Notes under the pieces: model-generated
What the model saw: only the letters and a program-made list of their open reading frames with translations
What the model was told of the DNA's origin: nothing
Databases searched by the model: none
Shown here: one piece after another, positions 12,167 through 63,400 of the stretch
Numbering within the stretch: position 1 is the first letter of the stretch
How the letters are laid out: every line of letters begins with the position of its first letter
Source: Pegea sp. RAD2-039
Taxonomy: Eukaryota > Chordata > Thaliacea > Salpida > Salpidae
Direction of reading: 5' to 3'
Assembly: GCA_034620365.1 (NCBI GenBank)
Contig: JAQGEQ010000058.1
Span: 866,426 to 930,425 of the forward strand
Length of the DNA: 64,000 bases
Made by a program: the position numbers and the translations under genes

Positions 12167-15100
12167 ATGTCTTTAGAAGGTCAAATTTTAAGATGATCAA
12201 AATAAATTTTTATCTACATTCACTGAAACTAACTAAGAATTCCAAAACTTCAATCGAAATCTATCGTTTCCTATTTTTTCAGAAGTCAATAATGACTCCA
12301 TTATTCGGATTCCACCCTACTTCTACATTCATGTTCTTGATTTGAACTCAAATGTGACTAGTTTGGATATTGGACCAAAGACTTTCTTTAAACAAGATAA
12401 TCAAAAGTAACATTAGATGAATAATCAACTTTACTGTTGCAAAAGACTGAGTCTTAAACTTTGTTCCTGTAGGGTAGTGTTTAACCCTAGACAGATGATC
12501 AAAATTCCTCCACGATTTTACTGCATCATTGAGAATCCAGTTATGAGAAATGAAGAAGGAAAAGCTGTTCTTGATCAACATGGACAGGTTAAATTACTTC
12601 ATGGTGACAAGGAAGTAAGATTATGTCAGGAACCATTTCCTTTGTATCCTGGTGAAATTTTGAAGAAGGTTGGTAAAGTGGTTCAAATGGAAATTAGGTT
12701 TGTCGTCAAACAAAAGTTTTTGACTGCAGGAAGTTACTCCGTTGACAATAGTTTCGCCAAATACTGCATTGCGACTAAAAGCTGATTTGGACTTTGTAGA
12801 TTCAAGTGGCAATCAACGGGTGGCTGGTGATGAATGGTTGTTTGAAGGACCTGGTAAGATTAAAACAAAAACTAAAGTAAACCATTTATAAATAAAAATC
12901 ATTCACAGGAACTTATATCCCTCAAAAGGAAGTTTCTGTTGAAGAAACTATCAAGGCAACTGTGATTAAGAAGAATCAGGCCATCAAGCTAATGTCTCGA
13001 AAAGAAATGGTTGATAAGGAAGGGTGTGCAAGAGTAACTGGTATGTAATACTATAAGATTAGTAGCTGTTTCAAGATAATTATTTGTGTGTAGGTGAAGT
13101 ATGGCTGATAAAAAAGGTAGGAGCATATCTTCCTGGAGCGTTTGAAGAAGTTAAAGAAGTAGTGTCCTCAGTAATTTTAACAGAAAAGGTTTGGCACATT
13201 ATTACTTTGCGAGTTGTTGCTATAACAACTAACTGTAATCTTGTAGAGAGCTATACATATGAGAGCAACTGAAAATTTCACTGATTTCACTGGAGTAGAA
13301 CGAAAGAATGGCGAAGAATGGTTGATTACAATTAAGCAAACTGGGTCTCATATACCAGATGTATTTGAAGAGGTTAATTAAATATTTTTGTTTCTATATC
13401 AGTTCTAAATATTGAAGGCTTTAATTTAAATATGGAAATTTTAGATGGTTGGTGTGGTGGAAATAACAACACTGACTTCTCGTCAATATTGTGTAATTCT
13501 GAATCCTGTTGATGAAAATGGTAAAAATCAACTAGGAAGCAAACGGTTGGTGAAAGGAGAATGCTCATTCTTTTTACAACCTGGAGAAGAACTTGAAGCA
13601 GGAATTCAGGTACTACACATTTATTTTATGTGATCACTCTTGTTATACACCTCTTAAAGTATGTGTCCGTTTCTTAGGATGTTTATGTGTTAGGAGAAGA
13701 TGAAGGTTTGATTTTAAAAGCAATTGAATCATGTGTCGATGAAGAAGGTAATGAAAGAAAGCCTGGAGATAAGTGAGTTACAAAAAGCAAAATTGAGTTA
13801 GAAAAGTTGGAACTATTTGTTACTGTGTAGTATATGTAGAAGCCTGTTAGTTTTGCATATTTAACATGGTTTCATCAAAGTTTGTGTTTACGACTTATGC
13901 AGTTCAACTTTATTTTTGTAAAAGTTATTTTTTGCTAAACCATCATAAACTATTTTATTAATTTTAATTATTTTTATATTTTTTTGAAATTTTAGCAAAA
14001 AATATTCTAAACTAATATCGATAATGGCAAAGTTAATTTATTTATAGGTGGTTGATTCGAGGTCCATGTGATTATGTACCAACGGTTTCAGTAAGTGTTT
14101 TTGCACAACGAAAAACAATCTCATTAGACGAAAACGAAGGAATTTATGTTCGGAATATGAAAAATGGACAAGTACTGAAACTCTCATCATATTTCTATAA
14201 TTTTATATAAAGTTTTCACTCAATAACATTACTTAAAAGTTTTAGAAATAATTTTATGAAACCAATAATCTAAAACATAGCATTATTATTTTGTATCAGT
14301 ATCAGTAATTGAAAGTAGCTTACATTGATTACATTATCTTTATTTAATTGAAGCTTTTTCTTCAGTAAAATTGTAAATCAGTGTTCTTTAAAAATTTAAT
14401 TTGTAGATTTTATCTGAAATGTTTATTTTTTTTTGCTTAAATGAAATATTTCTTTAAATATCTCAAATAGATAAATTCTGTTAAATGTTAACAACGCTCT
14501 TCAGAATGTTTTACATTTGGCAATTAGCTTTATAATATTCATTAATCATCAATTTTGATTGAAGGTGCGTAGTATTTGCGGTGAAACTTATCTCCTTAAT
14601 CAAGATGAAGAGTTGTGGAAAAAAGAGCTGCCAGAAGAAGTAGAGAAACTGTTGATGGTTGATCCATCAACTGAAAGAAGTAGAAAGAGAAAGAGCTCTG
14701 ATGGTCATTAATAGTTTATTTATATGTAGTTAGCAAGATACAATAAAACTGTATAGTTGTTTACTGTATAAAAGCAAATATAATGAATAGATTATGTCTT
14801 TTAGATTCATTGGAAGTCAGAGATAAGACTCGATTGGTTACTTTTCGGGCTCCCCATAATTCTTGTGTGCAAATATATGATTATAAAGAAAAGAAAGCAA
14901 GGTTATTATTATCTTAGATTACAGTAAATCAGATTAATTATTTCTCAGTTACAAACTTTTTGAAAATATTCATGAAAAATACTTATCTAATTTACAGAGT
15001 TGTTTTTGGACCTCATTTGGTAATGTTAGGCCCTGATGAACAGTTTACTCAACTTTCCTTATCTGGTGGCAAACCAAAACAAACAAACTCCATTCGATCA

Positions 15101-16617
15101 CTTGCATTGTTGCTTGGACCTGACTTTTGCACCGATATCATAACGATTGAGACATCAGATCATGCTAGACTTTCTCTACAACTTGCTTATAACTGGTACA
15201 TTTGAATTTAGTAACTTTCATTCTTTAAGATGTTAGTTCACCTTTAGAATTCTATAAATGATACTTGTTCTTATTATAATTTTCATGATTCAACCTATTT
15301 TTCATATTTATTAAAAGTAAAAAATGTTCTGAAGGTTGATTACTTAGCTGCTTGTATTTTTATATCTAGTAAAAGACTATCCTTTTAACTTCAGGCATTT
15401 TGACACTTCATCTGCTGTAATGGATCAGAACCAAGCTGCCAAACTTTTTAGTGTTCCTGACTTTGTTGGTGACATGTGTAAGGCAATAGCTTCACGAATT
15501 CGTGGAGCAGTAGCATCTGTCAGTTTTGATGATTTCCACAAGGTAAATTGAATCTGGTCAACTAATCTGGTTTTTAGTTGCAACTGGTGACTTTTTCTTT
15601 CGTAGAACTCATCTCAAATCATTCGTACGTCAGTTTTTGGTGTCGATGACAATGGTAAAGTTCGAGACGTGTTCGAGTTTCCTCAAAACATGCTGAGAGT
15701 CACTTCTATTGATGTACAATCAGTTGAACCAGTTGATCAACGAACCAGAGATGCTCTGTTGAAATCGGTTCAACTAGCCATTGAGATCACCACTAACTCC
15801 CAGGAAGCAACTGCTAAGTGAGGCTGTTGATAGTTTCCAAGGCTGTTACTAATATTTATTTACATATTAGACACGAAGCAAATCGAATGGAACAGGAAGC
15901 TCGTGGTCGTCTTGAGCGTCAGAAAATTGAAGACCAAGCGTCCGCAGAAAGATCACGTCGAGATCTTCTTGAGCTTCAATCAATGAGTGCGGCTATAGAG
16001 AGTACAGGACAAGCAAAGGCTGAAGCTCAATCAAGAGCTGAATCAGCACGAATTGAAGGACAGTCAGCTGTTGAAGAAGCTCGCTTAGCCGCTGAAGCAG
16101 CTGAGATTGAAAATGTAACTTCATATACAAGTTTTTTATTGCAAGATTTCTATGATTATTATAACTAGGCGTCAGAGCTGGAACGTTTAATCAAAGCACG
16201 TGAAGCTGAACTAAAATACTTGAATGAGAAAGATCAGATGGAGATTGGAAAGACAAAAAAGCTGAGTGAGATTGAGATTGAGAAATTTGAGAAGTTAATC
16301 TTAGCAATTGGAGCTGATACTATCAAGGCAATCGCAACCTCTGGTCCTGATCATCAGGTTAGTTCAGAATTCTTTTTCTCTTATGCCACATTCAACTCGA
16401 TTGTCAACAGGTGAAGCTTCTTCAAAGTCTTGGTATCCAATCAACTATTTTTACTGATGGAAAATCTCCGATTAATCTTTTCAATACTGCTCAAGGACTG
16501 ATTGGTGGGTTACAATCTACAAATTCAGTGATGAATAATCGGCCAATTAAAGATGTTGAAAATCCTAAGAAGGACAGTGATTCTGTCTGCGGTAGTATCA
16601 TGTCTGATTACAGTTAA
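12167..16617 (+). CDS. MVP: Major vault protein, copy 1
   Basis: This is the shell subunit of the cytoplasmic vault ribonucleoprotein. Eighteen exons join in frame to 875 residues (human 893): 12167-12179, 12283-12406, 12473-12668, 12730-12853, 12909-13040, 13094-13188, 13247-13372, 13445-13609, 13678-13772, 14048-14171, 14565-14703, 14805-14901, 14998-15195, 15395-15542, 15606-15817, 15871-16114, 16169-16357, 16411-16617. The N-terminal MVP repeats carry family signatures ([44 protein letters not shown]). The shoulder domain spans about residues 477-663 ([36 protein letters not shown]). The charged cap helix is about 663-807 and the cap ring ends with LLQSLG and PINLFNTA. The start is [16 protein letters not shown], made by a 13-nt first exon with a weak gtcaaa donor, and is the least certain part. 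AATAAA follows the stop at 16735. Confidence 0.95.
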
Positions 16618-18985: not shown

Positions 18986-20626
18986 CAATTTAAAACTTAA
19001 AAATAATAGAAAATTTTCAGAAAAAACCTTATAATTCAAAAATGGTATCTGATATTAAAAACCAAATGTCACAAAATAACTAATGTAATTAAAGAGTTAG
19101 GTAAATTATTGTAACAAATTTGTAGCTTATAGATTTCATCATCAATTTGATGCAACCAAAAGATTACTTTACTGTTTTAAAGTCAAAACTTTTAGATAAC
19201 TAGTTGAAGCTATAAGAAGCTGTCTAACAGTAGAAAGTTTGCAAGCGACTGAATATAGTTCAAATACTTATCATATTTTAAATTTTTGAGAAAGTTTAGA
19301 ATTGTTTGAACAATATTTTCAAAATTTCAAAGCCTTATCTTCTAGTAAATGAATTTCAAGACATTTATCTAGTTGATAATTTGAGGTGTAATGTGTAGTC
19401 AGAAGTTTGGTTTAAATAGATTGGCTTATAGCTTGATCATTAAGTTTTGTTTATACAGTCAATATCTAATGCAGGAATATCTTAGTTGAAGTTTTACTGA
19501 ACAAAAAAGCTTAATATGAACAAGGAAATGACTTTCAAAGTTGTTTATAGATATTTTGCTCATGAAAATTTATTTCTTCACCTAAATATTTACACAGTTG
19601 AAACTTTTTTCTAAAAATAGTTTCATATTTTAATAGATAGATAGTATGAGTCTAGCCTCTTTACACTTTAGAAGTCTTAGTAGGCTTTAAGAAAAACCAA
19701 ACTTGCTGAAAAATGTTTCTTAGACAGTAGTAGCCAAGCAGAACAACAATTTCAGATTAAGATTTATAGAAGAAGATTAAATTAGAAACTGCAAAAAATG
19801 GACAATTCTGATTAATTCTGTATTTTATATGGATTAAAAAAGCGAGAAGTTAACAGTGTCTTCCTTATTAGGTTAACAAATATAAGCTTTTATGACAAAT
19901 GTTAGATGTTGTAAGCCAGTTGATAGACCTTTACTATTTACTGTTGATACCAATAGTTAATATTTCATACATGTTTTATGTCTTAAAAAATAAATTGTGT
20001 CAGTAAATAAACTTGAACTTTAGACTTTTACTTTGATAATCAAGTATTTCTAATAAAACATTTTGCTGAGACACTTTATAAGATTATAATCACTAAAAAG
20101 TACTATTTAAGATTCAATTTATTTTTTTTTATTTTTATAAGTTTTATATTCAATTATATTTTAATACTGAACTATTTAAAACTGATAGTTTTACGGTTGA
20201 ACCTTTTCAGACACTAAAGTTTTGAATATTTGATTCTTCAGCGATTCAAGGTGAAAATGAATAATAAAAGTTCTTCAAGTAGCAGTACCGGAAATAGTGA
20301 GAGTTTTCAGCAATTTCTATTAGAAATAGTTATTGTTTATTTTTTGGTAATATTAAATAAATAAACAAGAATGAATTTATCTACAAAAACTAATAATTAT
20401 AAATAATTTGGAAACTTTAAAATAATATTCATTTTAAACAATAAATAAACTCAAATGAAACTTATATCATTTTGCAATTAAAAGTAAAAAACTGTTAAGT
20501 GATGATGCATGTAATCATCACGCCATGTTTTCTCTAAATTGATTTTGCACTGTTCAATGTTGATATCATAAAGAACTATCGCTAAATATTTCCTTACATA
20601 TATAAAACAAAATATAATGTTAATAA

Positions 20627-23600
20627 ATGTCTTTAGAAGGTCAAATTTTAAGATGATCAAAATAAATTTTTATCTACATTCACTGAAACTAACTAAGAAT
20701 TCCAAAACTTCAATCGAAATCTATCGTTTCCTATTTTTTCAGAAGTCAATAATGACTCCATTATTCGGATTCCACCCTACTTCTACATTCATGTTCTTGA
20801 TTTGAACTCAAATGTGACTAGTTTGGATATTGGACCAAAGACTTTCTTTAAACAAGATAATCAAAAGTAACATTAGATGAATAATCAACTTTACTGTTGC
20901 AAAAGACTGAGTCTTAAACTTTGTTCCTGTAGGGTAGTGTTTAACCCTAGACAGATGATCAAAATTCCTCCACGATTTTACTGCATCATTGAGAATCCAG
21001 TTATGAGAAATGAAGAAGGAAAAGCTGTTCTTGATCAACATGGACAGGTTAAATTACTTCATGGTGACAAGGAAGTAAGATTATGTCAGGAACCATTTCC
21101 TTTGTATCCTGGTGAAATTTTGAAGAAGGTTGGTAAAGTGGTTCAAATGGAAATTAGGTTTGTCGTCAAACAAAAGTTTTTGACTGCAGGAAGTTACTCC
21201 GTTGACAATAGTTTCGCCAAATACTGCATTGCGACTAAAAGCTGATTTGGACTTTGTAGATTCAAGTGGCAATCAACGGGTGGCTGGTGATGAATGGTTG
21301 TTTGAAGGACCTGGTAAGATTAAAACAAAAACTAAAGTAAACCATTTATAAATAAAAATCATTCACAGGAACTTATATCCCTCAAAAGGAAGTTTCTGTT
21401 GAAGAAACTATCAAGGCAACTGTGATTAAGAAGAATCAGGCCATCAAGCTAATGTCTCGAAAAGAAATGGTTGATAAGGAAGGGTGTGCAAGAGTAACTG
21501 GTATGTAATACTATAAGATTAGTAGCTGTTTCAAGATAATTATTTGTGTGTAGGTGAAGTATGGCTGATAAAAAAGGTAGGAGCATATCTTCCTGGAGCG
21601 TTTGAAGAAGTTAAAGAAGTAGTGTCCTCAGTAATTTTAACAGAAAAGGTTTGGCACATTATTACTTTGCGAGTTGTTGCTATAACAACTAACTGTAATC
21701 TTGTAGAGAGCTATACATATGAGAGCAACTGAAAATTTCACTGATTTCACTGGAGTAGAACGAAAGAATGGCGAAGAATGGTTGATTACAATTAAGCAAA
21801 CTGGGTCTCATATACCAGATGTATTTGAAGAGGTTAATTAAATATTTTTGTTTCTATATCAGTTCTAAATATTGAAGGCTTTAATTTAAATATGGAAATT
21901 TTAGATGGTTGGTGTGGTGGAAATAACAACACTGACTTCTCGTCAATATTGTGTAATTCTGAATCCTGTTGATGAAAATGGTAAAAATCAACTAGGAAGC
22001 AAACGGTTGGTGAAAGGAGAATGCTCATTCTTTTTACAACCTGGAGAAGAACTTGAAGCAGGAATTCAGGTACTACACATTTATTTTATGTGATCACTCT
22101 TGTTATACACCTCTTAAAGTATGTGTCCGTTTCTTAGGATGTTTATGTGTTAGGAGAAGATGAAGGTTTGATTTTAAAAGCAATTGAATCATGTGTCGAT
22201 GAAGAAGGTAATGAAAGAAAGCCTGGAGATAAGTGAGTTACAAAAAGCAAAATTGAGTTAGAAAAGTTGGAACTATTTGTTACTGTGTAGTATATGTAGA
22301 AGCCTGTTAGTTTTGCATATTTAACATGGTTTCATCAAAGTTTGTGTTTACGACTTATGCAGTTCAACTTTATTTTTGTAAAAGTTATTTTTTGCTAAAC
22401 CATCATAAACTATTTTATTAATTTTAATTATTTTTATATTTTTTTGAAATTTTAGCAAAAAATATTCTAAACTAATATCGATAATGGCAAAGTTAATTTA
22501 TTTATAGGTGGTTGATTCGAGGTCCATGTGATTATGTACCAACGGTTTCAGTAAGTGTTTTTGCACAACGAAAAACAATCTCATTAGACGAAAACGAAGG
22601 AATTTATGTTCGGAATATGAAAAATGGACAAGTACTGAAACTCTCATCATATTTCTATAATTTTATATAAAGTTTTCACTCAATAACATTACTTAAAAGT
22701 TTTAGAAATAATTTTATGAAACCAATAATCTAAAACATAGCATTATTATTTTGTATCAGTATCAGTAATTGAAAGTAGCTTACATTGATTACATTATCTT
22801 TATTTAATTGAAGCTTTTTCTTCAGTAAAATTGTAAATCAGTGTTCTTTAAAAATTTAATTTGTAGATTTTATCTGAAATGTTTATTTTTTTTTGCTTAA
22901 ATGAAATATTTCTTTAAATATCTCAAATAGATAAATTCTGTTAAATGTTAACAACGCTCTTCAGAATGTTTTACATTTGGCAATTAGCTTTATAATATTC
23001 ATTAATCATCAATTTTGATTGAAGGTGCGTAGTATTTGCGGTGAAACTTATCTCCTTAATCAAGATGAAGAGTTGTGGAAAAAAGAGCTGCCAGAAGAAG
23101 TAGAGAAACTGTTGATGGTTGATCCATCAACTGAAAGAAGTAGAAAGAGAAAGAGCTCTGATGGTCATTAATAGTTTATTTATATGTAGTTAGCAAGATA
23201 CAATAAAACTGTATAGTTGTTTACTGTATAAAAGCAAATATAATGAATAGATTATGTCTTTTAGATTCATTGGAAGTCAGAGATAAGACTCGATTGGTTA
23301 CTTTTCGGGCTCCCCATAATTCTTGTGTGCAAATATATGATTATAAAGAAAAGAAAGCAAGGTTATTATTATCTTAGATTACAGTAAATCAGATTAATTA
23401 TTTCTCAGTTACAAACTTTTTGAAAATATTCATGAAAAATACTTATCTAATTTACAGAGTTGTTTTTGGACCTCATTTGGTGATGTTAGGCCCTGATGAA
23501 CAGTTTACTCAACTTTCCTTATCTGGTGGCAAACCAAAACAAACAAACTCCATTCGATCACTTGCATTGTTGCTTGGACCTGACTTTTGCACCGATATCA

Positions 23601-25070
23601 TAACGATTGAGACATCAGATCATGCTAGACTTTCTCTACAACTTGCTTATAACTGGTACATTTGAATTTAGTAACTTTCATTCTTTAAGATGTTAGTTCA
23701 CCTTTAGAATTCTATAAATGATACTTGTTCTTATTATAATTTTCATGATTCAACCTATTTTTCATATTTATTAAAAGTAAAAAATGTTCTGAAGGTTGAT
23801 TACTTAGCTGCTTGTATTTTTATATCTAGTAAAAGACTATCCTTTTAACTTCAGGCATTTTGACACTTCATCTGCTGTAATGGATCAGAACCAAGCTGCC
23901 AAACTTTTTAGTGTTCCTGACTTTGTTGGTGACATGTGTAAGGCAATAGCTTCACGAATTCGTGGAGCAGTAGCATCTGTCAGTTTTGATGATTTCCACA
24001 AGGTAAATTGAATCTGGTCAACTAATCTGGTTTTTAGTTGCAACTGGTGACTTTTTCTTTCGTAGAACTCATCTCAAATCATTCGTACGTCAGTTTTTGG
24101 TGTCGATGACAATGGTAAAGTTCGAGACGTGTTCGAGTTTCCTCAAAACATGCTGAGAGTCACTTCTATTGATGTACAATCAGTTGAACCAGTTGATCAA
24201 CGAACCAGAGATGCTCTGTTGAAGTCGGTTCAACTAGCCATTGAGATCACCACTAACTCCCAGGAAGCAACTGCTAAGTGAGGCTGTTGATAGTTTCCAA
24301 GGCTGTTACTAATATTTATTTACATATTAGACACGAAGCAAATCGAATGGAACAGGAAGCTCGTGGTCGTCTTGAGCGTCAGAAAATTGAAGACCAAGCG
24401 TCCGCAGAAAGATCACGTCGAGATCTTCTTGAGCTTCAATCAATGAGTGCGGCTATAGAGAGTACAGGACAAGCAAAGGCTGAAGCTCAATCAAGAGCTG
24501 AATCAGCACGAATTGAAGGACAGTCAGCTGTTGAAGAAGCTCGCTTAGCCGCTGAAGCAGCTGAGATTGAAAATGTAACTTCATATACAAGTTTTTTATT
24601 GCAAGATTTCTATGATTATTATAACTAGGCGTCAGAGCTGGAACGTTTAATCAAAGCACGTGAAGCTGAACTAAGATACTTGAATGAGAAAGATCAGATG
24701 GAGGTTGGAAAGACAAAAAAGCTGAGTGAGATTGAGATTGAGAAATTTGAGAAGTTAATCTTAGCAATTGGAGCTGATACTATCAAGGCAATTGCAACCT
24801 CTGGTCCTGATCATCAGGTTAGTTCAGAATTCTTTTTCTTTATGCCGCATTCAACTCGATTGTCAACAGGTAAAGCTTCTTCAAAGTCTTGGTATCCAAT
24901 CAACTATTTTTACTGATGGAAAATCTCCGATTAATCTTTTCAATACTGCTCAAGGACTGATTGGTGGGTTACAATCTACAAATTCGGTGATGAATAATCG
25001 GCCAATTAAAGATGTTGAAAATCCTAAGAAGGACAGTGATTCTGTCTGCGGTAGTATCATTTCTCTGTAG
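20627..25070 (+). CDS. MVP: Major vault protein, copy 2
   Basis: This has the same 18-exon structure as copy 1 shifted by 8460: first exon 20627-20639, exon 17 at 24629-24817, last exon 24870-25070. It predicts 873 residues. Compared with copy 1 I see few coding changes: several synonymous sites, Lys to Arg and Ile to Val in exon 17 (near 24675 and 24704), and a different C-terminus. A 41-nt deletion replaces the MSDYS end with ISL. All splice sites and the frame are kept, so it looks functional rather than a pseudogene. Introns are retained, so it arose by DNA duplication rather than retroposition. The start has the same uncertainty as in copy 1. Confidence 0.94.
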
Positions 25071-26013: not shown

Positions 26014-27623
26014 ATTTTATTTATTTATTTATTAGAATAAATCTGAAGGAGGGTGCCTAAAGAGAGCACTTCTCGCTAACACACATTCTCACAAATTAGA
26101 TCTATTTGACGTGTAAACGAAAAAGCATATGACAATGAAGAATTGCACAGAATCATAGTATTGTAAAAGAGAAAAATTCACAGTTTAGAAATGGCAATGT
26201 TGGCGATATTATAACAATTCAGCTTTTCCTTGAACAGCATAAGTGATTTTGACATGACAATCTCTGATGGCAGATTGTTCCATGTACTGATTGTGCGGTA
26301 TGAGAAAAAACTTAATCTGGTTAACGTAGCTGGTGGAGTGGGCTTATTAAGATGTAATTTATGTCTTCTAAGTTGATATAACTTGAGGGAGGGACTAATG
26401 GAGAAAAAGTCATCAAACTGAAGATCAATTAGGTTGTGAATAATTTTAAAAATCAGAATAAGGTCGTATTTAATTCTTCGGATTTCCAAAGTATCTAGAT
26501 TGAAGAAGCTGAGACGATGCTTATAACTCTCGTATTTGATATTAAGTTTCCTGCAAACCAATCTCGTAAATGTTGCCTGAACAGATTCGATTTTTCTGAT
26601 ATCACCAACTTGATATGGCATCCATGCACTGACATTGTATTCAAGAATAGGGCGTACGTACAGTTTGAAAAGGTTGACGAAAAACCATGGATCTTTAGAA
26701 TTAAAAGTCTTTATGATGAGGTGGACAAGCATGATAGATTTTCCAAAGATTCTGGAAACATAACTGTGCCATTTGAAGTCAGATGTCAGAGTAATGCCGA
26801 GGTCTATGACTGAGGATACTCGTTCAAGAATGGATCCATTGATGTAGTATTGGTTGCTGAAGTTGGCAGCTGGCTTACGGGAGAATGTTATAACTTCAGA
26901 CTTTGTTGGCTGGATTTTAAGTTGCCAATTCGCAGACCAGTTTTCTACAATGTTTAGTGCAGTTTGGAGTTTTGAGTGAGAACCAGATAATAGCTTGATG
27001 TCATCTGCATACACAAACACACTGACATTGTCTACTGTTATTAGTCTTTTGATGAGGTCTTCAATGAAAATCAAAAAGAGAAGTGGACCCAGAACGGAAC
27101 CCTGAGGAACGCCGCTGGTGACTTTACTAGAAGTAGATAAAGATCTTTCTACACGGGTTCGTTGGGTTCTACCTGATAAGATTTCTTCAATCTATTTTAA
27201 GATGGAGTTGCTGATTTTTATGTTTTTCAATACAGTAATGAGCTTGTTGTGTGGAACAGAATCAAACGCTTTAGCAAAATCAAGGTATATGATGTCACAT
27301 GGAGTATTACTTTCGTAATGAGCTCTAAGCTCATTGAAAAAAGTGAGATGTTGAGTCAAAGAAGATCTTTGCTTAACAAAGCCATGCTGGAAATCAGATA
27401 TTAGATGATGCTCCGTCAAATGGCTAGTTATATGGTTGTGAATGATATGTTCTTGAGTTCTGCAGATAACCGAAGTCAGCGAAACTGGTCTGTAGTTAAG
27501 TGCAGTGTTTCTGGGACCCTTCTTATAAATTGGAGTAATAATAGCATTCTTCCAAATTTGTGGAAGTCTTCCCCGCTTAAGAGTCATGTTAAAGAGTAGC
27601 GATAAGGGTAGCGCTAAAGAAGA
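26014..27623 (-). mobile_element. CR1-like LINE, 5'-truncated and broken
   Basis: This is the same family as the element at the right end of the window and is very similar over the shared part. It carries only the reverse-transcriptase half of ORF2 and the 3' UTR, and is cut off on its 5' side near 27623. The catalytic YADD is present near 27003. A Trp codon (TGG) of the intact copy is TAG here, near 27193, which splits the frame. The 3' end is a run of TTTA-type repeats, seen as tttatttatttattta on the + strand. It lies just past the end of the second MVP duplicate. Confidence 0.92.
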
Positions 27624-34453: not shown

Positions 34454-37400
34454 ATGTCTTTAGAAAATGATGTTTCATCTGGTGAACTACAGAAATTGTT
34501 TCCTTATGTTCATAGATTTCTTTTAGAATGCAAATACAAAAAATTGGCTCAAAATTTTAAGAATTTAACAAAAACGGTAAGAACAAGTTTCTTGAACTTA
34601 AGTTACAAAATTTTAATTGAATAAAAATTATTCACAAAGTCAGAAATAAATATATAATTTTTGTTTAAATAGAAAGCTGCGAAAGCTGATGACCCATCTC
34701 TAGTTCAGTTTTATAATTCATTTTTTGCAAACTCTCTAAAACGGAAACCAGATCCCACATCAAGTGAAGAAAACTCTGATTCTGGTACTGAGGTAAAGAT
34801 ACCTTTATTTGCCAATAAACACAGAATGATCATATCATGTAGAAAGAAAATATTCAATTGATAGAATATGAAAAAAAAACTTAATATTTCTAATATAATT
34901 TGGCTTTTATATTCATCTATAAAACTAGTTTTAAGATGATTGTTTTATTTTCCCTTTAGAATAATTCATTTGATTGAACACTATAAACAAAACTTTAATA
35001 TTAATTTCTTTTAGTGCCCTGCTAAAAAGCAAAAAATTGCTAATGGAGAAAAAAAGGTTCAGTTGAAATCTGTTGTATTAAAAGGTAGGGTTTTTTCTTT
35101 ACAGCAATATATTTTCAAGTATAATTATTCTATAAATATTTTGTTATTTTTCTATCATTTTCTAACAAGTATAGATTGAGATAACCATTAATATAAATCA
35201 GCTATTGTCAGTAATTATGAATTGTCAACACCAGAAAATGTCAAGCAAAACAAACCAGCAAAGGTTATCAAACCAACTAAGAAGGAATCCTCATCTGAAG
35301 AAGAGTCTTCATGTGAAGAAGAATCTTCTAAAGAAGAAGAAAAGAAAACTTCAAATAAAAAAGTAGCTGCTAAGAAAGGTTTGTTTAATGAGTTTTTGGA
35401 ATTAGTATTTTGTTGATTTAATTCATAAAAACTTTGATGTCTCAGTGATCTTAAAAAAGCTAAACTTTTTAATTCAAGTTTTCAAAATATCTATAAATAA
35501 TTATCTGAACAATTTTTGAATAAGATTTAATATTTTTGTTTAAAATTAATTTAACAGAAGTAAAAGCTACACCAGCAAAGGTAGTTGTCAAACCAACTAA
35601 GAAGGAATCCTCATCTGAAGAAGAGTCCTCATCTGAAGAAGAATCTTCTGAAGAAGAAGAGGAAGAAAAGAAAGTTTCAAATAAAAAAGTAGCTGCTAAG
35701 AAAGGTTTGTTTAATGAAGTTTTTTTTATAATTTTATTATTAATTTATTATTCAACAATTTATTCCTGGATATTTTTTATATATTTTTTATAAAATTGAT
35801 ATTAAATACGAGTTTAAATTTTGTTCAAAATTAATTTAACAGAAGTAAAAGCTACACCAGCAAAGGTAGTTATCAAACCAACTAAGAAGGAATCTTCTTC
35901 TGAAGAAGAGTCTTCAAGTGAAGAAGAAGAAGAAAAGAAAGTTTCAAATAAAAAAGTAGCTGCTAAGAAAGGTTTGTTTAATGAGTTTTTTTTTAATTTT
36001 ATTATTAATTTATTATTCAACAATTTATTCCTGGATATTTTTTATATATTTTTTATAAAATTGATATTAATTAAGAGTTTAAATTTGGTTCAAAATTAAT
36101 TTAACAGAAGTAAAAGCTACACCAGCAAAGGTAGTTGTCAAACCAACTAAGAAGGAATCTTCTTCTGAAGAAGAGTCTTCAAGTGAAGAGGAATCTTCTG
36201 AAGAAGAAGAAGAAAAGAAAGTTTCAAATAAAAAAGTAGCTGCTAAGAAAGGTTTGTTTAATGAAGTTTTTTTTTTTTTTTAATTTTATTATTAATTTAT
36301 TATTCAACAATTTATTTCTGGATATTTTTTATATATTTTTATAAAATTGATATTAATTAAGAGTTTAAATTTTGTTCAAAATTAATTTAACAGAAGTAAA
36401 AGCTACACCAGCAAAGGTAGTTGTCAAACCAACTAAGAAGGAATCCTCATCTGAAGAAGAGTCTTCAAGTGAAGAGGAATCTTCTGAAGAAGAAGAAGAA
36501 AAGAAAGTTTCAAATAAAAAAGTAGCTGCTAAGAAAGGTTTGTTTAATAAAGTTTTTTTTTAATTTTATTATTAATTTATTATTCAACAATTTATTCCTG
36601 GATATTTTTTATATATTTTTATAAAATTGATATTAATTAAGAGTTTAAATTTTGTTCAAAATTAATTTAACAGAAGTAAAAGCTACACCAGCAAAGGTAG
36701 TTATCAAACCAACTAAGAAGGAATCCTCATCTGAAAAAGAGTCTTCAAGTGAAGAGGAATCTTCTGAAGAAGAAGAAGAAAAGAAAACTTCAAATAAAAA
36801 AGTAGCTGCTAAGAAAGGTTTGTTTAATGAAGTTTTTTTTTAATTTTATTATTAATTTATTATTCAACAATTTATTCCTGGATATTTTTTATATATTTTT
36901 TATAAAATTGATATTAATTAAGAGTTTAAATTTGGTTCAAAATTAATTTAACAGAAGTAAAAGCTACACCAGCAAAGGTAGTTATCAAACCAACTAAGAA
37001 GGAATCCTCATCTGAAGAAGAGTCTTCAAGTGAAGAAGAATCTTCTGAAGAAGAAGAAAAGAAAGTTTCAAATAAAAAAGTAGCTGCTAAGAAAGGTTTG
37101 TTTAATGAGTTTTTGGAATTAGTATTTTGTTGATTTAATTCATAAAAACTTTGATGTCTCAGTGATCTTAAATAAGCTAAACTTTTTAATTCAAGTTTTC
37201 AAAATATCTATAAATAATTATCTGAACAATTTTTGAATAAGATTTAATATTTTTGTTTAAAATTAATTTAACAGAAGTAAAAGCTACACCAGCAAAGGTA
37301 GTTGTCAAACCAACTAAGAAGGAATCCTCATCTGAAGAAGAGTCTTCAAGTGAAGAGGAATCTTCTGAAGAAGAAGAAGAAAAGAAAGTTTCAAATAAAA

Positions 37401-39647
37401 AAGTAGCTGCTAAGAAAGGTTTGTTTAATGAAGTTTTTTTTTAATTTTATTATTAATTTATTATTCAACAATTTATTCCTGGATATTTTTTATATATTTT
37501 TTATAAAATTGATATTAATTAAGAGTTTAAATTTTGTTCAAAATTAATTTAACAGAAGTAAAAGCTACACCAGCAAAGGTAGTTATCAAACCAACTAAGA
37601 AGGAATCTTCTTCTGAAGAAGAGTCTTCAAGTGAAGAGGAATCTTCTGAAGAAGAAGAAGAAAAGAAAGTTTCTAATAAAAAAGTAGCTGCTAAGAAAGG
37701 TTTGTTTAATAAAGTTTTTTTTTAATTTTATTATTAATTTATTATTCAACAATTTATTTCTGGATATTTTTTATATATTTTTTATAAAATTGATATTAAT
37801 TAAGAGTTTAAATTTGGTTCAAAATTAATTTAACAGAAGTAAAAGCTACACCAGCAAAGGTAGTTATCAAACCAACTAAGAAGGAATCCTCATCTGAAGA
37901 AGAGTCTTCAAGTGAAGAGGAATCTTCTGAAGAAGAAGAGGAAGAAAAGAAAGTTTCTAATAAAAAAGTAGCTGCTAAGAAAGGTTTGTTTAATGAGTTT
38001 TTGGAATTAGTATTTTGTTGATTTAATTCATAAAAACTTTGATGTCTCAGTGATCTTAAAAAAGCTAAACTTTTTAATTCAAGTTTTCAAAATATCTATA
38101 AATAATTATCTGAACAATTTTTGAATAAGATTTAATATTTTTGTTTAAAATTAATTTAACAGAAGTAAAAGCTACACCAGCAAAGGTAGTTGTCAAACCA
38201 ACTAAGAAGGAATCCTCATCTGAAGAAGAGTCCTCATCTGAAGAAGAATCTTCTGAAGAAGAAGAGGAAGAAAAGAAAGTTTCAAATAAAAAAGTAGCTG
38301 CTAAGAAAGGTTTGTTTAATGAAGTTTTTTTTTTTAATTTTATTATTAATTTATTATTCAACAATTTATTCCTGGATATTTTTTATATATTTTTTATAAA
38401 ATTGATATTAATTAAGAGTTTAAATTTGGTTCAAAATTAATTTAACAGAAGTAAAAGCTACACCAGCAAAGGTAGTTATCAAACCAACTAAGAAGGAATC
38501 CTCATCTGAAGAAGAGTCTTCAAGTGAAGAGGAATCTTCTGAAGAAGAAGAAGAAAAGAAAGCTTCAAATATAAAAGTAGCTGCTAAGAAAGGTTTGTTT
38601 AATGAGTTTTTTGTTAATTATAAATTATTTATTTTTAGCTTAATTTTAATATTAATATCAAGCAAATTGATTTTAGATAAATAAAAATGTTTTAATACTA
38701 TATATTAGCTGACAATTTAAAACTTTTAAAAACCAAAATTAAATTAACAGAAGTAAAAGCTACACCAGCAAAGGTAGTTGTCAAACCAACTAAGAAGGAA
38801 TCTTCTTCTGAAGAAGAGTCTTCAAGTGAAGAAGAATCTTCTAAAGAAGAAGAAGAAAAGAAAGCTTCAAATAAAAAAGTAGCTGCTAAGAAAGGTTTGT
38901 TTAATGAGTTTTTTGTTTTTCAGAGATAGTTAATTTCTTTTTTCAATTTGACTTTTTATCATTTTTTTTCGAACAGCAAAGAAATCTGCTTCTGCTGTGA
39001 AAGATCAATTCAAAGTAGCTGAAGTGAGTACTCAAATAAATCTTAGAATTTTCAGCTCTTCCAGATTTTGCTCTTCTCATATTAATTGATATTCTTTGTA
39101 GCTAATCACTACTCCTGCCGCAAAATCAACTCCTAAGGTCACTAAAGCAAAGAAAAGATCCTCAGAAGATCCGGAGGACCCGACTCCTATCAAGAAATCC
39201 AAACCTGATGAAGGTCCGTTTTATTTTATAAATTATTTTCATTTTTTGATATTTCTTTTATGAACAGAAGTTGTGATCGCATCTGGAGAGAAGAAGGCGA
39301 AAAAGCGAAAGGTAATCACGTGACGCTTGCTTGTTTGCTCGTTTCTAATGTTTTTTATTCATAGTCTGGAACCCCTTTTCGGCGAGTCAATGACGATGAT
39401 GTCGTGGTTGATAAGCGGTTGTCTAGCAACGCGTTTGAAACTAAAGTAAGAGTAGAATTGGATGGAAACAAAAGTGATGCCGTCATTTGTTTAGAATGAT
39501 TCATGGGGAAAAGCTGCAAATGATGTGTTGAAATACACGAAAGGAAAGAGCTTTCGACACGAGAAGACCAAGAAGAAGCGTGGAAGTTACCGCGGTGGAG
39601 CTATTGATCCTAACGTCATCAACTCCATAACCTTCGATAGCGACTAA
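34454..39647 (+). CDS. NOLC1: Nucleolar phosphoprotein Nopp140/NOLC1 with amplified repeat exons
   Basis: This is a nucleolar and Cajal-body chaperone for snoRNPs and Pol I factors, heavily phosphorylated by CK2. Twenty-one exons join in frame to 870 residues. Exons 1-3 (34454-34576, 34673-34792, 35015-35084) give a LisH-like N-terminus ([21 protein letters not shown]). Exon 4 (35235-35378) and twelve near-identical exons (35558-38894) each encode one basic-acidic module: [12 protein letters not shown], a Glu/Ser run, then [13 protein letters not shown]. The last exons (38977-39023, 39102-39213, 39268-39311, 39365-39445, 39495-39647) give the conserved SRP40 domain with [27 protein letters not shown] and a final FDSD. 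Clear homology at both ends makes the identification firm. AATAAA lies 5 nt after the stop. Confidence 0.95.
35558..38894 (+). repeat. Array of 12 tandem exon-intron units in NOLC1
   Basis: Exons: 35558-35704, 35843-35971, 36108-36251, 36394-36537, 36674-36817, 36955-37095, 37275-37418, 37556-37699, 37837-37983, 38163-38309, 38449-38592, 38751-38894. Lengths are 129-147 nt, all multiples of three, and all phase 1 at both ends. The introns are repeated too: a short form of 136-142 nt containing a ggatattttttatatat core, a long form of exactly 179 nt seen three times (after exon 4, and after repeat exons 6 and 9), and two unique introns at the 3' end. It is not a CRISPR or satellite array, because the units are coding exons with functional splice sites. 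Confidence 0.95.
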
Positions 39648-40067: not shown

Positions 40068-41134
40068 TCACTTCATATTCAAAAAGTATTTCTGCATCAC
40101 AGGATTATCCATTCCATTCGGAACTGGAGTTTTATGTAAAGTTTCTTCCAATGAATGTCGATGTCTCGACTTCTCGTTGCCACGCATTTGTTGGTTATCA
40201 AGTGACCTGGGCTCAGTTCCAGGCTTGGACATATTGACAAGTTCATCTCTACCAACCATTTGTCTGATGTAGTCCTCATGGTCAGCATCTACTGGCTTGC
40301 GTCCCCCATATAGCATTCTTTGAGACTTTACTCGACCTGATGATTTACGATGACGTCTTGAACCACCATGTCTTCGATGTCCATGGTGATGATGGTGACT
40401 ATGGTTACCATAGAGACGTCCATGGCTGTGATGACGATGATGGTGACCACCATGGTGTCTTCGATGTTCTTTATGTGAATGCTGATAAGTTGATATTCGA
40501 GTTCGATGTTTATGATGTTTGATTGGACGTCGTAGACTCCTTCTCAATGGATTTGGAACTAGCTCCTTACGATGAGTCCTCTGCTGTTGCGAAATTGAAG
40601 GATAGCAAATTGATTCTTCTGCGGAGTCGTTTAACAACGGATATTCGCGTCGCTTCACGCTTGCAGCTGCTGAAAATCGACGAATGATTTCATTGTCACC
40701 GACAAACATGTCTGAACATCCGTCCATCATCCCATCTCTACTTTCAGCAGCTCTTAGCCAATCAGGTTTATTCTTTCGCTTCTTCTTGTGCGAATCATAA
40801 AATTTATCGTCAGATCGGTTTGGTAGAGAAGCTGAAACTACAGATGGATATCCGATAGTTGATCTGAAAAACTATTTTGTTCAAATGCTCAACTGAAACT
40901 TCTACAAAACGTTTACCTGCCTAAAGAGTTGACGTCAAATGCTTCTGCCCGTTGTCGATGGGAGATATGAGCAAGTGGTTGGCGGGAAAGAACGCCTTCA
41001 ATCGTAGCAGATTTGTGTTTTTTTCTCCGATGACTATGATACTGAGATTTATGTCTCATACTGTCTCTTATGTGATCTTTCACATTCTCCTCTCCTTCAC
41101 TGAAAGCTGAATCTTTATCTGAATAACTGAACAT
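40068..41134 (-). CDS. Unknown His/Arg-rich basic protein, two exons
   Basis: I do not recognise this gene. Exons 41134-40917 and 40863-40068 join with matching phase (AG|A) to 337 residues. The first exon starts MFSYSDKDSAFSEGEEN, then becomes basic (YHSHRRKKHKS). The second starts RSTIGYPSVVSASLP and contains a basic DSHKKKRKNKPDWLRAAE. A remarkable His/Arg/Gly block lies at about residues 195-240 (GGHHHRHHSHGR, NHSHHHHHGHRRHGGSRR). No signal peptide or membrane helix is seen. A metal-binding, nucleic-acid-binding or membrane-protein regulatory domain could all look like this, and I cannot choose. The stop at 40068 could instead hide a further spliced exon. It lies head-to-tail behind the MARVEL-like gene, 217 nt away. 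Confidence 0.6.
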
Positions 41135-48064: not shown

Positions 48065-50995
48065 GATAGACTGTATGATAGAGGCGGCGGTGTTTGCGTA
48101 ATTTACAAAATATTGCTTGCACCCAAGATCTCTAGAATTCAGATCGATCCCATTAATTTTCCAAGGTTGAGATTATTGCTTTTGATTTTCATTACTCAAA
48201 GTCCAAATTTTCTCGTTTTATATGTACCTATCTAGCACCCTCTAAATCTAATGATAAGGTTACTGTTAAGGTTTTATTGAAGGCTCTGAAGAGTGTTGTG
48301 TGTCCTGAGTTATATATTTTGGGAGATTTTAATTTTGTTAAAGTTGATTGGAATAACCCGAATTCAGCATTTAGTGGAAAATCGTTTAACTTGGATAGCG
48401 ATAATACTAATTCACCCTTTCTAAGTCATGCCTTTGTAGGCTTCCTCAATGCCAATAATCTATCTCAGATGGTTACTTTTTCGACCCAAGTTAGTGGTAA
48501 TACTTTGGATCTTCTTATCACATCAAAACCTGAGAACATTATCTACGTTGATCAAAAGGAACCTTTTGCTTTGACATGCGGTCACAATATGATTGAATTC
48601 AAGCTCCATCAAACTTTTTTTATGAACGTTAAAACTTCAAGCAAAAGGAATTTTTACTATGGAAATTATAATGGCATTAACAAGTTTCTATCAGATGTTG
48701 ACTGGATTTCTGTTTTCAACTCTTCCGAAGACATCAATACTATTAACTCAAAGTTTACTAACATCGTTAAAGAGTCAATCGAAAAATTCATGCCTTTTTA
48801 TAGAGCCAACAAAAAACCACATTTTCCCAAAAATTTAAAGAATTTACAACACTTAAAAAACCTCCTATACAAACAAACTAAAACAGACCCTTCCATCAAA
48901 TCTCTGTACAAAGATCTTTGTATAGTTTACAAGAATCTATTTCTAATTTCTATTTGGGAAGAGAAAGTGCAGTTTTATCTTCACCTTGCAAGAAAACGTT
49001 TTTTGGTTTCATAAATCGCAAGCTTAAGGCAAGATCTCAAATACCTCCTTTACTTGATAACAGCGACCAGTTTGTGATGGAACTAGAGAATAAAACTTAG
49101 TTGCTAAACAGTCAATTTAATAGCGTTTTTATAACCGATGATGGCAATACTCCTTCTCTCTCCTACTCCGACATTCTTACAGATTTGTCTGAGATAGTAG
49201 ATCTTGACATAACGGTCAATATGGTATCTAAGGCTATTTCCTCTTTAAAATCATCAGTTTCCAACACCCCAGATCAGATCCCAGCTTTGCTTTTAAGAAA
49301 AACTACTTCATCTTTATCACTACCTTTATCACACTCTTTAACATGACTCTGAGGCGAGGAAGAGTTCCACAAATTTGGAAGAAAGCTATTATTACTCCAA
49401 TTCATAAAAAGGGTCCCAGCAACACTGCACTTAACTACAGACCAGTTTCGCTGACTTCAGTTATCTGCAGAACTCATGAGCATATCATTCACAATCATAT
49501 GACCAGTCATTTGATGGAGCACCATCTAATATCTGATGACCAGCATGGCTTTGTGAAACGGAGATCTACCCTGACTCAACATCTCACTTTTCTTAATGAG
49601 CTTACAGCCCATTATGAAAGTAACACTCCCTGTGACATCATATATCTCGATTCGATCATATATATCTATTTTACTAAAGCGTTTGATTCTGTCCCACACA
49701 CTAAGCTCGTTACTGTATTGAAAAACTTAAAAATCAACAGCTTTATCTTACTTTATTTTATTATAGCTTTATCTTACAGTGGATTGAAGATTACCTATCA
49801 GGTAGAACCCAACAAACTCGTGTAGAAAGATCTTTATCTACTTCTAGTCAAATCACTAGTGGTGTTCCTCAGGGCTCTGTTCCGGGTCCCCTTCTATTTA
49901 ATTTTCATCGAAGACCTCATCAGAAGATTAGTAGCAGTAGATGATGTCAGAGTGTTTGTGTATGCAGATGATTTCAAGCTATTATCTTGTAATCCTTTCA
50001 AACTTCAAACTGCACTACACACTATAGAAAACTGGTCTACGAATTGGCAGCTCAGAATCCAGCCCACAAAGTCTGAACTTATAACTTTTTCTCGTAAACC
50101 AGCTGTAAATTGCTTGAACCAATACTCCATAGATAGATTTATTATTCAACGAGTATCTTTGGTCCTAGACCTTGGCATTACTCTTTCATCTGACTTTAAA
50201 TGGCGCAATTATGTGTCCAAAATCTTTTGAAAATCAATCAAACTTGTCTTCCTTATTATAAAGACCTTTAATTCTAAGAACCCATGCTTTTTTATCAATC
50301 TTTTCAAATTGTACGTACGTCCAATTCTTGAATACAATGTCAGTGCATGGATGCCATATCAAGTTAGTGATATCAAAAGAATCGAATCTGTTCAGGCCAC
50401 ATTTACAAGATTAGTATGTAGGAAACTTAATATTAAATATGATAGCTATAAGCATCGTCTCAGTCTCTTCAATTTAGATACTTTGAAAATCCGACGGATT
50501 AAATATGACTTAATTCTTATTTTTAGAATGATCCACAATTTAATTGACATTCAGTTTGATGATTTCTTTTCTATTAGTCCTTCCTTCAAGTTATATCAGC
50601 TCAGACGACACACATTACACCTTAATAAGCCTATATCACCTAGTACATTGGTCAGAGCAAATTTTTTCTCACACCGTACAATTAATACATGGAATCAGCT
50701 GCCATCAGACATTGCCATGTCGAAGTCGCTCGCATTGTTCAAGCAGAAGTTAAACCGTCATAATATTGCCAACATTGTCATTTCTAAACTGTGATTTTTT
50801 TCTCTTTCTTATATTATTAACATTATATGTAATTGTTCACTGTTATATGCTTTGAGTGATATCGAAATGCCATGTGTTACATCTTTTACTTTCTATATTT
50901 TTGGCTAAATAGATGTTATTTGTGAGAATGTGTGTTAGCGAGAGGTGCTCTTTTCAGGTACCCTCTTTCGCATTTATTGAAATAAATAAATAAAT
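48065..50995 (+). mobile_element. CR1-like LINE, 5'-truncated and decayed
   Basis: This is the same LINE lineage as the right-end element but clearly more diverged. It lacks ORF1 and the first part of the endonuclease, beginning at the GGGVCV region. ORF2 is broken into pieces: 48277-49014 (endonuclease with LGDFNF and LDLLIT), 49101-49346, 49343-49825 (start of the reverse transcriptase), 49859-50230 (FVYADD), and 50309-50794 (C-terminal part). A small tandem duplication lies inside reverse-transcriptase motif A near 49650, giving YLDSIIYIYFTKAFD. A second short duplication near 49740-49782 shifts the frame, and a TGA follows KIF at 50228. It ends with the shared 3' hairpin and aaataaataaataaat. 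Confidence 0.93.
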
Positions 50996-60482: not shown

Positions 60483-63400
60483 TCACAGTTTAGAAATGGC
60501 AATGTTGGCGATGTTATAACAATTCAGCTTTTTCTTGAACAGCATAAGTGATTTTGACATGACAATCTCTGATGGCAGATTGTTCCATGTACTGATTGTG
60601 CGGTATGAGAAAAAACTTAATCTGGTTAACGTAGCTGGTGGAGTGGGCTTATTAAGATGTAATTTATGTCTTCTAAGTTGATATAACTTGAGGGAGGGAC
60701 TAATGGAGAAAAAGTCATCAAACTGAAGATCAATTAGGTTGTGAATAATTTTAAAAATCAGAATAAGGTCGTATTTAATTCTTCGGATTTCCAAAGTATC
60801 TAGATTGAAGAAGCTGAGACGATGCTTATAACTCTCGTATTTGATATTAAGTTTCCTGCAAACCAATCTCGTAAATTTTGCCTGAACAGATTCGATTTTT
60901 CTGATATCACCAACTTGATATGGCATCCATGCACTGACATTGTATTCAAGAATAGGGCGTATGTACAGTTTGAAAAGGTTCACGTAAAACCATGGATTTT
61001 TAGAATTAAAAGTCTTTATGATGAGGTGGACAAGCCTGATAGATTTTCCAAAGATTCTGGAAACATAACTGTGCCATTTGAAGTCAGATGTCAGAGTAAT
61101 GCCGAGGTCTATGACTGAGGATACTCGTTCAAGAATAGATCCATTGATGTAGTATTGGTTGCTGAAGTTGGCAGCTGGCTTACGGGAGAATGTTATAACT
61201 TCAGACTTTGTTGGCTGGATTTTAAGTTGCCAATTCGCAGACCAGTTTTCTACAATATTAAGTGCAGTTTGGAGTTTTGAGTGAGAACCAGATAATAGCT
61301 TGATGTCGTCTGCATACACAAACACACTGACATTGTCTACTGTTATTAGTCTTCTGATGAGGTCTTCAATGAAAATCAAAAAGAGAAGTGGACCCAGGAC
61401 GGAACCTTGAGGAACGCCGCTGGTGACTTTACTAGGAGTAGATAAAGATCTTTCTACACGGGTTCGTTGGGTTCTACCTGATAAGAAATCTTCAATCCAT
61501 TTTAAGATAGAGTTGCTGATTTTTATGTTTTTCAATACAGTAATGAGCTTGTTGTGTGGAACAGAATCAAAAGCTTTAGCAAAATCAAGGTATATGATGT
61601 CACATGGAGTATTACTTTCGTAATGAGCTGTAAGCTCATTGAAAAAATTGAGATGTTGAGTCAAAGAAGATCTTTGCTTAACAAAGCCATGCTGGACATC
61701 AGATATTAGATGATGCTCCGTCAAATGGCTAGTTATATGGTTGTGAATGATGTGTTCTTGAGTTCTGCAGATAACCGACGTCAGCGAAACTGGTCTGTAG
61801 TTAAGTGCAGTGTTTCTGGGACCCTTCTTATAAATTGGAGTAATAATAGCATTCTTCCAAATTTGTGGAAGTCTTCCCCGCTTAAGAGTCATGTTAAAGA
61901 GTAGCGATAAGGGTAGCGCTAAAGAAGAAGTACTTTTTCTTAAAAACAAAGCTGGGATTTGATCTGGGGTGTTGGAAACTGTTGATTTTAGAGAAGAAAT
62001 AGCCTTAGATACTATATCAGCTGTTATGTCTAGATCTACCATCTCAGAGATATTTGAAAGGATATTGGAGTAGGAAATAGTAGGAGTATTGCCATCATCG
62101 GTTATAAAAACCTTTTCAAATTGTTTGTTTAGCAATTCAGCTTTATTCTTTGGTTCCATCACCAGCTGATTAGCGTTATCAAGCAAGGGAGGTAGATGAG
62201 ATCTCGCCTTAAGCTTGTGATTAATGAAGCCAAAAAACGTTTTCTTGCTAGGTGATGATAAGATTGCACTTTCTTTTCCTAAATAGAAGCTATAAACTGA
62301 TTTCTTGTAGACTAGACAAAGATCTTTGTATAGAGGTTTGATGGAAGGATCTGCTTTAGTTTGTTTGTATAAGAGGTTTTTCAAATGCTGTAAATTCCTT
62401 AAATATCTTGGCAAGTGTGGTTTTTTGTTGACTCTATATAAAGGTATGAACTTTTTAATTGACTCATTAACAATGTTAGTAAACCTCGAGTAGATATCAT
62501 TGATGTCTTCGGTAGAGTTGAAAACAGAAATCCAGTCAACACCTGATAAAAACTTGTTTATACTGTTATAATTTCCACGATAAAAGTTCCGTATGCTTGG
62601 AGTTTTAACGTTCGTAGAAAAAGTTTGATGGAGCTTGAACTCAATCATGTTGTGATCGCATGTCAGAGCAAAAGGTTCATTTTGATCAACGTAGATAACG
62701 TTCTCAGGTTTTGATGTGATGAGAAGATCCAAAGTATTACCACTAACTTGGGTTGGAAAAGTAACCATCTGAGATAGATTATTGGCATCAAGGAAGTTTA
62801 CAAAGACATGACTCAGATTGGCTGAATTAGTTTTGTCTCCATTCAAATTAAACAATTTTCCATTGAATGCTAAATTTGGGTTATTCCAATCAATTCTACT
62901 AAAATTAAAATCCCCAAGAATATAGATCTCAGGACAAACTAGGCTTTTCAGAACCTTTAATAAGGCCTTAATAGTAACCTCATCGTTAACTTTAGACGGT
63001 GGTAGGTAGGTACATATAAAGCGGGAAAACTTAGACTTTGAGTAATGAAAATTGAAAGCAATAATCTCAAATCCTGGGCAATCAATGGTATTTATCTTAA
63101 TTCTTGAAATCATGGGTGCCAGTGATGTTTTATAGATTACACAAACACCGCCGCCTCTATCAAACAGTCTATCACAGCGCAAAGCACGAAAAAGATCACT
63201 GTCATCCAGAAAGGAGTCAGGATAAAAGGGTTTCAACCAAGTTTCGGTAATGAAAACAAATGTAAAATCTTGAGAAAGCAAAAGAGCTTTCAATTCGAAA
63301 ATTTTGTTGACAATTGACCGTGCATTGAAAAACATACCTAATATAAAAGAAAAATTGTCTTTTTGACACTTGTAAGATTTAGTGGTAGGCTTCTGTGTAC

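Follow-up and report, generated by a model that had tools for sequence, protein, structure and literature searches.

A tandem array of exon–intron units with two homogenised intron types in the NOLC1/Nopp140 gene of Pegea sp.

The NOLC1 locus and its repeat exons

The stretch of DNA analysed here, called the window, comprises 64,000 nucleotides from Pegea sp. RAD2-039 (contig JAQGEQ010000058.1, positions 866,426 to 930,425). It has 28.5% G+C and belongs to a 105.7-Mb assembly of 387 contigs (GCA_034620365.1). A search for COX1 gave no match. The window holds a gene of the NOLC1/Nopp140 type, whose central part is a tandem array of similar exons and introns. The gene model (34454–39647, forward strand, as for all parts of the gene given below) is a prediction from the open frames and splice signals of the genomic DNA only. 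It has 21 exons joined by GT-AG introns and encodes 870 residues, where the ATG is read at 34454 and the stop codon at 39645–39647. Exons 1–3 (34454–35084) encode the N-terminal part before the array, and exons 17–21 (38977–39647) encode the C-terminal part behind it.

The C-terminal part carries the SRP40_C domain (PF05022), which Pfam places in the last 145 residues with E = 1.7e-26 and 93.3 bits against a cut-off of 28.6. The match covers the full profile, positions 1–76 of 76, and it is the single match to PF05022 genome-wide. By this C-terminal domain and by the central serine-acidic and basic modules with their CK2-type motifs, the predicted gene is NOLC1/Nopp140. An N-terminal LisH region is a feature of this family. 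The N-terminal part of the present protein, for which Pfam gave no match at E up to 10, may resemble that region, judging by eye. No solved structure matched the last 50 residues at E up to 1, and the viral and prokaryote collections gave 22 and 206 stretches matching the pattern of the C-terminal part, none of which was confirmed as a relative.

The array (35235–38894) was delimited by the reading of exons and introns and by Tandem Repeats Finder, and it contains 13 repeat exons, E4 to E16, of 43–49 residues each. All 13 exons are open, of phase 1-1 and of a length divisible by three (129–147 nt), and phase 1 is also found where the array joins exons 3 and 17. Each exon encodes one basic-acidic module, and all modules are close to one consensus, with V or I at one position. 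The array supplies 621 of the 870 residues of the predicted protein and 113 of the 120 S/T-x-x-E/D motifs, which are of the CK2 type and whose phosphorylation is predicted from the motif only. The first-pass annotation of this DNA had named the gene NOLC1 and had assigned each Nopp140 module to an exon of its own; both statements hold, the one by the SRP40_C score above the Pfam cut-off and the other by the 13 tandem phase 1-1 exons.

Tandem Repeats Finder assigns the array a period of 280 with 11.7 copies and a score of 3648. When periods up to 2000 were considered, the only rows of period 60 or more in the window were those of the array, at 280 and 882, and 18 sampled 10-kb stretches of the same genome contained two arrays of period 60 or more, both of 2.0 copies. 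Within the limits of this small sample (180 kb, about 0.2% of the genome), the array stands out. The repeat exon has at least 13 matches in the genome, all inside the NOLC1 gene, and a search of this one assembly found no second copy of the locus. These and the following genome match counts are lower bounds, as very common words were skipped in the search. Within each of the exons E4–E16, about 50–110 nt in, lies a nested 18-nt serine-acidic repeat; its first two blocks in E5 and E14 differ by a single base, which may point to copying of serine blocks within an exon, and E6 has one block fewer. With periods of 18 nt, about 280 nt and 882 nt, the array therefore repeats at three levels.

Intron types and three-unit blocks

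The 12 introns between the repeat exons, I4–I15, follow the order B A A A A A B A A B A C. Type A accounts for 8 of the 12, is 136–142 nt long and shows 0–6 substitutions between copies, with a mean difference of 1.8%. Type B accounts for three, each of 179 nt, with 0–1 substitutions between copies and a mean difference of 0.4%. Type C (I15) occurs once and is unique, as is type D (I16), which follows E16. In the intron comparison, I4 (35379–35557) is identical to I13 (37984–38162), and I10 (37096–37274), the remaining type B intron, has one substitution relative to both. The type A introns are I5–I9 (35705–36954, with exons E6–E9 between them), namely I5 at 35705–35842, I6 at 35972–36107, I7 at 36252–36393, I8 at 36538–36673 and I9 at 36818–36954, followed by I11 (37419–37555) and I12 (37700–37836), which enclose E12, and by I14 (38310–38448). 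I15 (38593–38750) has shared ends and a unique middle, and I16 (38895–38976), at the right edge, has 23 nt at its start in common with I15, its remainder being unique.

All 13 array introns start with GTTTGTTTAAT, and all except D end with TTAACAG. Across types, the likeness takes in about 20–45 nt of the 5' end in all 13 introns, and A and B also have about 37 nt of the 3' end in common. In their middles, A, B and C are not more alike than shuffled sequence; among 1000 shuffles, those scoring as high reached up to 99% for A and B, 88% for A and C and 11% for B and C. The mean difference among exons E5–E16 is 3.0%, and the bootstrap range of intron A, 0.6–3.1%, overlaps that of its eight upstream exons, 1.4–4.8%, and therefore our claim is limited to the introns being no less alike than the exons. 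Introns A and B are homogenised as strongly as the exons, with C and D as exceptions. Because the introns are no less alike than the exons, exon and intron are taken to have been multiplied together. The donor GTTTGT (e.g., 35379–35384) is common to the 13 array introns and unlike the remaining seven donors in the gene, and each of E5–E16 also holds an inner, donor-like AAAG|GTAGTT. Exon skipping is conceivable and would leave the frame intact.

The full intron A has at least nine matches in the genome, eight of which lie in the NOLC1 gene, the ninth reaching 75% over 88 nt. Intron B also has at least nine, of which the three full-length ones are all in the NOLC1 gene. Six further places in the genome are similar to positions 47–122 of B (79–87%), and the similarity among these places is longer, reaching up to 842 nt at 66–85%. 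This indicates that B carries a piece of a dispersed repeat (about 76 nt), found at 35425–35500, 37142–37217 and 38030–38105; at one of the six places there is also sequence similar to the window's retrotransposon regions. The repeat-derived tag sits at the same place in three non-neighbouring B introns and marks the same intron as having reached three separate places of the array.

At the larger scale, Tandem Repeats Finder reports a period of 882 with 2.9 copies and 93% matches at 36358–38913, where the score is 4258 compared to 3648 for period 280. Block comparison at this period gives a first three-unit block of E8-A-E9-A-E10-B (36394–37274, 881 nt) and a second of E11-A-E12-A-E13-B (37275–38162, 888 nt). 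These two blocks are 97.9% identical, differing by 12 substitutions and 2 gaps, and their intron types follow the same order. The A-A-B order occurs twice in E8–I13 and not along the entire array. A third block at the right edge, E14-A-E15-C-E16-D (38163–38976), is 78.0% identical to the second, and its introns C and D differ from A and B. Among the 36 non-overlapping pairs of three-unit blocks, the 15 in register have identities of 78.0–97.9% and the 21 out of register 70.5–88.4%. The similarity at an offset of three in units 5–14 exceeds that of permuted orders (P = 0.003, for the best of six offsets tried). Exact matches of at least 100 nt fall at multiples of three units in 12 of 19 cases, where 28% of the unit pairs fall.

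Short exchanges, array edges and alternative explanations

The longest perfect repeat in the array is a 374-nt stretch at 35354–35727, consisting of the end of E4, I4, E5 and the start of I5, which is identical to 37959–38332, nine units away. Compared as a whole, I5 and I14 differ by 4 substitutions and one gap, which indicates that the stretch is a tract and not part of a whole-block copy. The four-gamete test, applied to pairs of informative sites, fails for 14 of 36 in the eight A-type units and for 11 of 36 within exons E5–E16; some of the sites are linked. The distances among the eight A introns correlate neither with those of the preceding exon (r = 0.12) nor with those of the following one (r = −0.16), and this lack of tracking hints weakly at shuffling. 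Physical distance has no relation to the distances of the exons (r = 0.06, P = 0.30) or of intron A (r = 0.08, P = 0.35). In the exon tree, 7 of 8 inner branches are poorly supported, with too few changes for the order of units, and in the intron A tree this is the case for 5 of 5.

At the left edge, E4 (35235–35378) is the most different exon and has the longest branch in the exon tree (0.09). Its divergence is concentrated in the first 33 columns of the alignment, where it shows 8 substitutions and 9 gap columns relative to every other exon; past column 33 the values are 4–8 substitutions and 0–12 gap columns, and the sequence is like E10. From 35264, E4 and its intron are 98% identical over 300 nt to 36981–37280. 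A second in-frame AG acceptor, read from the sequence as ending at 35258, would start E4 at 35259, and with it most of the diverged stretch would become intron. The array is unhomogenised at both edges, in the start of E4 on the left and in introns C and D on the right. Unequal exchange predicts unhomogenised edges, as stated for other arrays (PMC2576457). The features of E4 suit an edge unit better than the oldest unit.

The first-pass annotation had described about twelve multiplications of one exon–intron unit with near-copy introns, the oldest-looking unit being E4. The joint copying of exon and intron stands, and recent copying is here attributed to three-unit blocks and to exchanges smaller than a unit. 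The introns are near-copies within type A (8/12) and within type B (3/12) and are not one family, C being unique and the middles of A, B and C unlike. The age assigned to E4 is not upheld, as most of its divergence falls in the first 33 columns and I4 does not differ from I13, although the E4 branch is the longest in the exon tree. A phylogeny of the units, which that annotation had proposed, recovers this long branch and does not resolve the unit order.

We consider it quite probable that the central domain of NOLC1 grew by unequal crossing over of tandem units, which were kept alike by gene conversion or short exchanges. Several observations weigh against this interpretation. The excess of exact matches at multiples of three units becomes smaller at 60 nt or more (27 of 69) and disappears at 40 nt or more (44 of 168). 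Apart from the first two blocks, the in-register pairs (78.0–97.0%) overlap the out-of-register range of 70.5–88.4%, the identity of the second and third blocks is only 78.0%, and a three-unit register asks for B at I7, which is of type A. The exon distances alone have no offset-3 effect (a mean of 4.9 events at offset 3 and 4.6 at offset 1). The failures of the four-gamete test come from nine sites, of which five belong to two linked groups, and recurrent mutation could be their source; the intron correlations are drawn from eight introns only. The splice sites of the array are predicted, with a donor unlike the seven others of the gene model, and the copying events are inferred from one sequence of one assembly.

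The lack of an offset effect in the exon distances alone and the poor fit of the third block would suit an amplification of single units, with intron types that fell into a three-unit period by chance. Such an arrangement, however, has to place E8–I10 and E11–I13 at 97.9% identity over about 888 nt, with the intron types in the same order, and to let period 882 outscore period 280 in Tandem Repeats Finder; we leave it a minor but real chance. Near-identical units of about 280 nt with a perfect repeat of 374 nt also invite an assembly error, by which the assembler would have expanded a shorter array or collapsed a longer one. Against this, the 13 exon-plus-intron units are all distinct and differ by substitutions, not by run lengths alone, the frame is open throughout, and the contigs seen, of up to 6.1 Mb, suggest long reads, which would span a 3.7-kb array. 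A wrong unit number through assembly is unlikely.

The near-identity of same-type introns and their same position in each unit would also be seen if a mobile intron, similar to an introner, had been inserted many times into an older uninterrupted coding repeat, and the Argiope silk genes are said to have novel repetitive introns of independent origin (PMC9779670). In the genome matches, however, which are lower bounds, full-length A and B are found only in the NOLC1 gene, so that neither appears to spread, and the likeness of C and D to A and B is confined to the ends; this origin has a slim chance. Among E5–E16, pS is 6.6%, a value from few sites, several of them linked, pN is 2.0% and pN/pS is 0.30. 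The protein looks constrained, and protein selection may be visible here. Purifying selection on the protein could then have kept old units alike without recent copying. However, protein constraint cannot hold 179-nt introns near-identical at three places, and protein selection cannot account for the introns, which are no less alike than the exons; we regard this last explanation as highly improbable.

Outside the NOLC1 gene, directly downstream, lies a 267-residue open frame (40068–40871, reverse strand), which contains a histidine-rich stretch and has no Pfam match. The segments 10539–16605 and 18999–25064 are a 6,067-bp tandem duplication, 99.77% identical with 13 mismatches, and are followed by shorter similar stretches at 94% and 84%. 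The duplication holds part of a major vault protein gene, with a Vault_2 domain at 12417–12782 and the same reading frame again at 20877. A non-LTR retrotransposon reading frame lies at 60483–63557 (reverse strand), open over 1024 residues and with endonuclease and reverse transcriptase domains; the non-LTR retrotransposon frames at 26178–27623 (reverse) and 48157–50794 (forward) look by eye like relatives split over several frames. A coding tandem repeat of 15/30 nt (DPTDG-like) is found at 2236–2362 (forward) in a 492-residue open frame, for which Pfam gave no match.

Comparison with known arrays and proposed growth of the domain

The nearest parallel is the dragline silk gene MaSp2 of Argiope spiders (PMC9779670). 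It has small, near-identical introns between similar exons, with a mean within-gene intron similarity of 97.6%, and two homogenised intron types alternate, an arrangement for which its authors knew no other eukaryotic gene (PMC9779670). The likeness to NOLC1 consists in the near-identical small introns and the homogenised types. The spider silk gene, however, has a period of two, with every other intron alike, whereas the nucleolar NOLC1 has in part a period of three (A-A-B), and its type B is marked by a piece of dispersed repeat, unlike the introns of MaSp2.

Other tandem exon–intron arrays are known as well. In the leucine-rich repeat (LRR) genes of Tetrahymena, arrays of same-phase 90-bp exons with introns are attributed to unequal crossing over, often with a retroelement adjacent (PMC6564038). 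Those are very many genes with phase 2 introns and exons of exactly 90 bp, whereas NOLC1 is one gene with phase 1 introns and exons of 129–147 nt. In SmPoMuc of Schistosoma mansoni, an exon and its flanking introns are repeated in tandem, the intronic part is more than 94% identical and evolves in concert, and the number of repeats is said to differ between individuals (PMC2576457). Its authors preferred gene conversion as the explanation and observed no gradient from central to edge repeats (PMC2576457). Unlike NOLC1, it belongs to a mucin multigene family, and its exon of 27 bp is part of a unit about 1 kb long.

Among proteins of the same kind, the Nopp140-like treacle, encoded by TCOF1, has 11 central repetitive motifs on exons 6A–16, which are phosphorylated by CK2 (PMC7957619); modular exons are therefore known in this kind of protein. 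The available part of PMC7957619 makes no mention of likeness among the repeat exons or introns, and that of the zebrafish tcof1 paper (PMC3266255) gives nothing on likeness of repeat exons. The central repeats of human Nopp140 are disordered and CK2-phosphorylated and bind disordered parts of small nucleolar ribonucleoproteins (snoRNPs) and of RNA polymerase I proteins, according to a commentary (PMC12905727). Compared as proteins only, human Nopp140/NOLC1 has about 699 residues (PMC12905727) and the present one 870, with 621 in the array. Among the openly licensed papers listed, judged by title and the start of the abstract, no report of Nopp140 exon arrays was found. Tandem exon–intron arrays are already known, and in that of NOLC1 two homogenised intron types occur together with a period of three that holds over part of its length.

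The growth of the array may have begun with the duplication of a single phase 1-1 exon with short introns. A dispersed-repeat piece would then have come to mark one intron, giving type B, after which an A-A-B block of three units would have been duplicated in tandem, and shorter exchanges would have carried B and exon variants to other places of the array. The coding repeat domain appears to grow by exchange of units and of blocks. As all units are of one phase, whole units can be gained or lost without a shift of frame. The number of units may plausibly vary between individuals. With each unit, the protein would gain a basic and a serine-acidic module bearing CK2-type motifs, and the length of the array would set the count of binding modules on a nucleolar scaffold. 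A bolder and doubtful extension is that NOLC1 is a second eukaryotic gene, remote from spider silk, with patterned types of homogenised introns, and that its introns serve as recombination pads, by which the scaffold would gain and lose modules in threes, with a number that varies within the species and tunes the assembly of nucleoli and Cajal bodies.

The growth of long, disordered, low-complexity domains is hard to read from the protein alone, and here the introns keep its traces. If a nucleolar gene has a related pattern, this would point to recombination itself as the origin of such arrays, without the special demand of silk. It would also allow nucleolar condensates to be tested, in a natural setting, for dependence on the number of Nopp140 modules.

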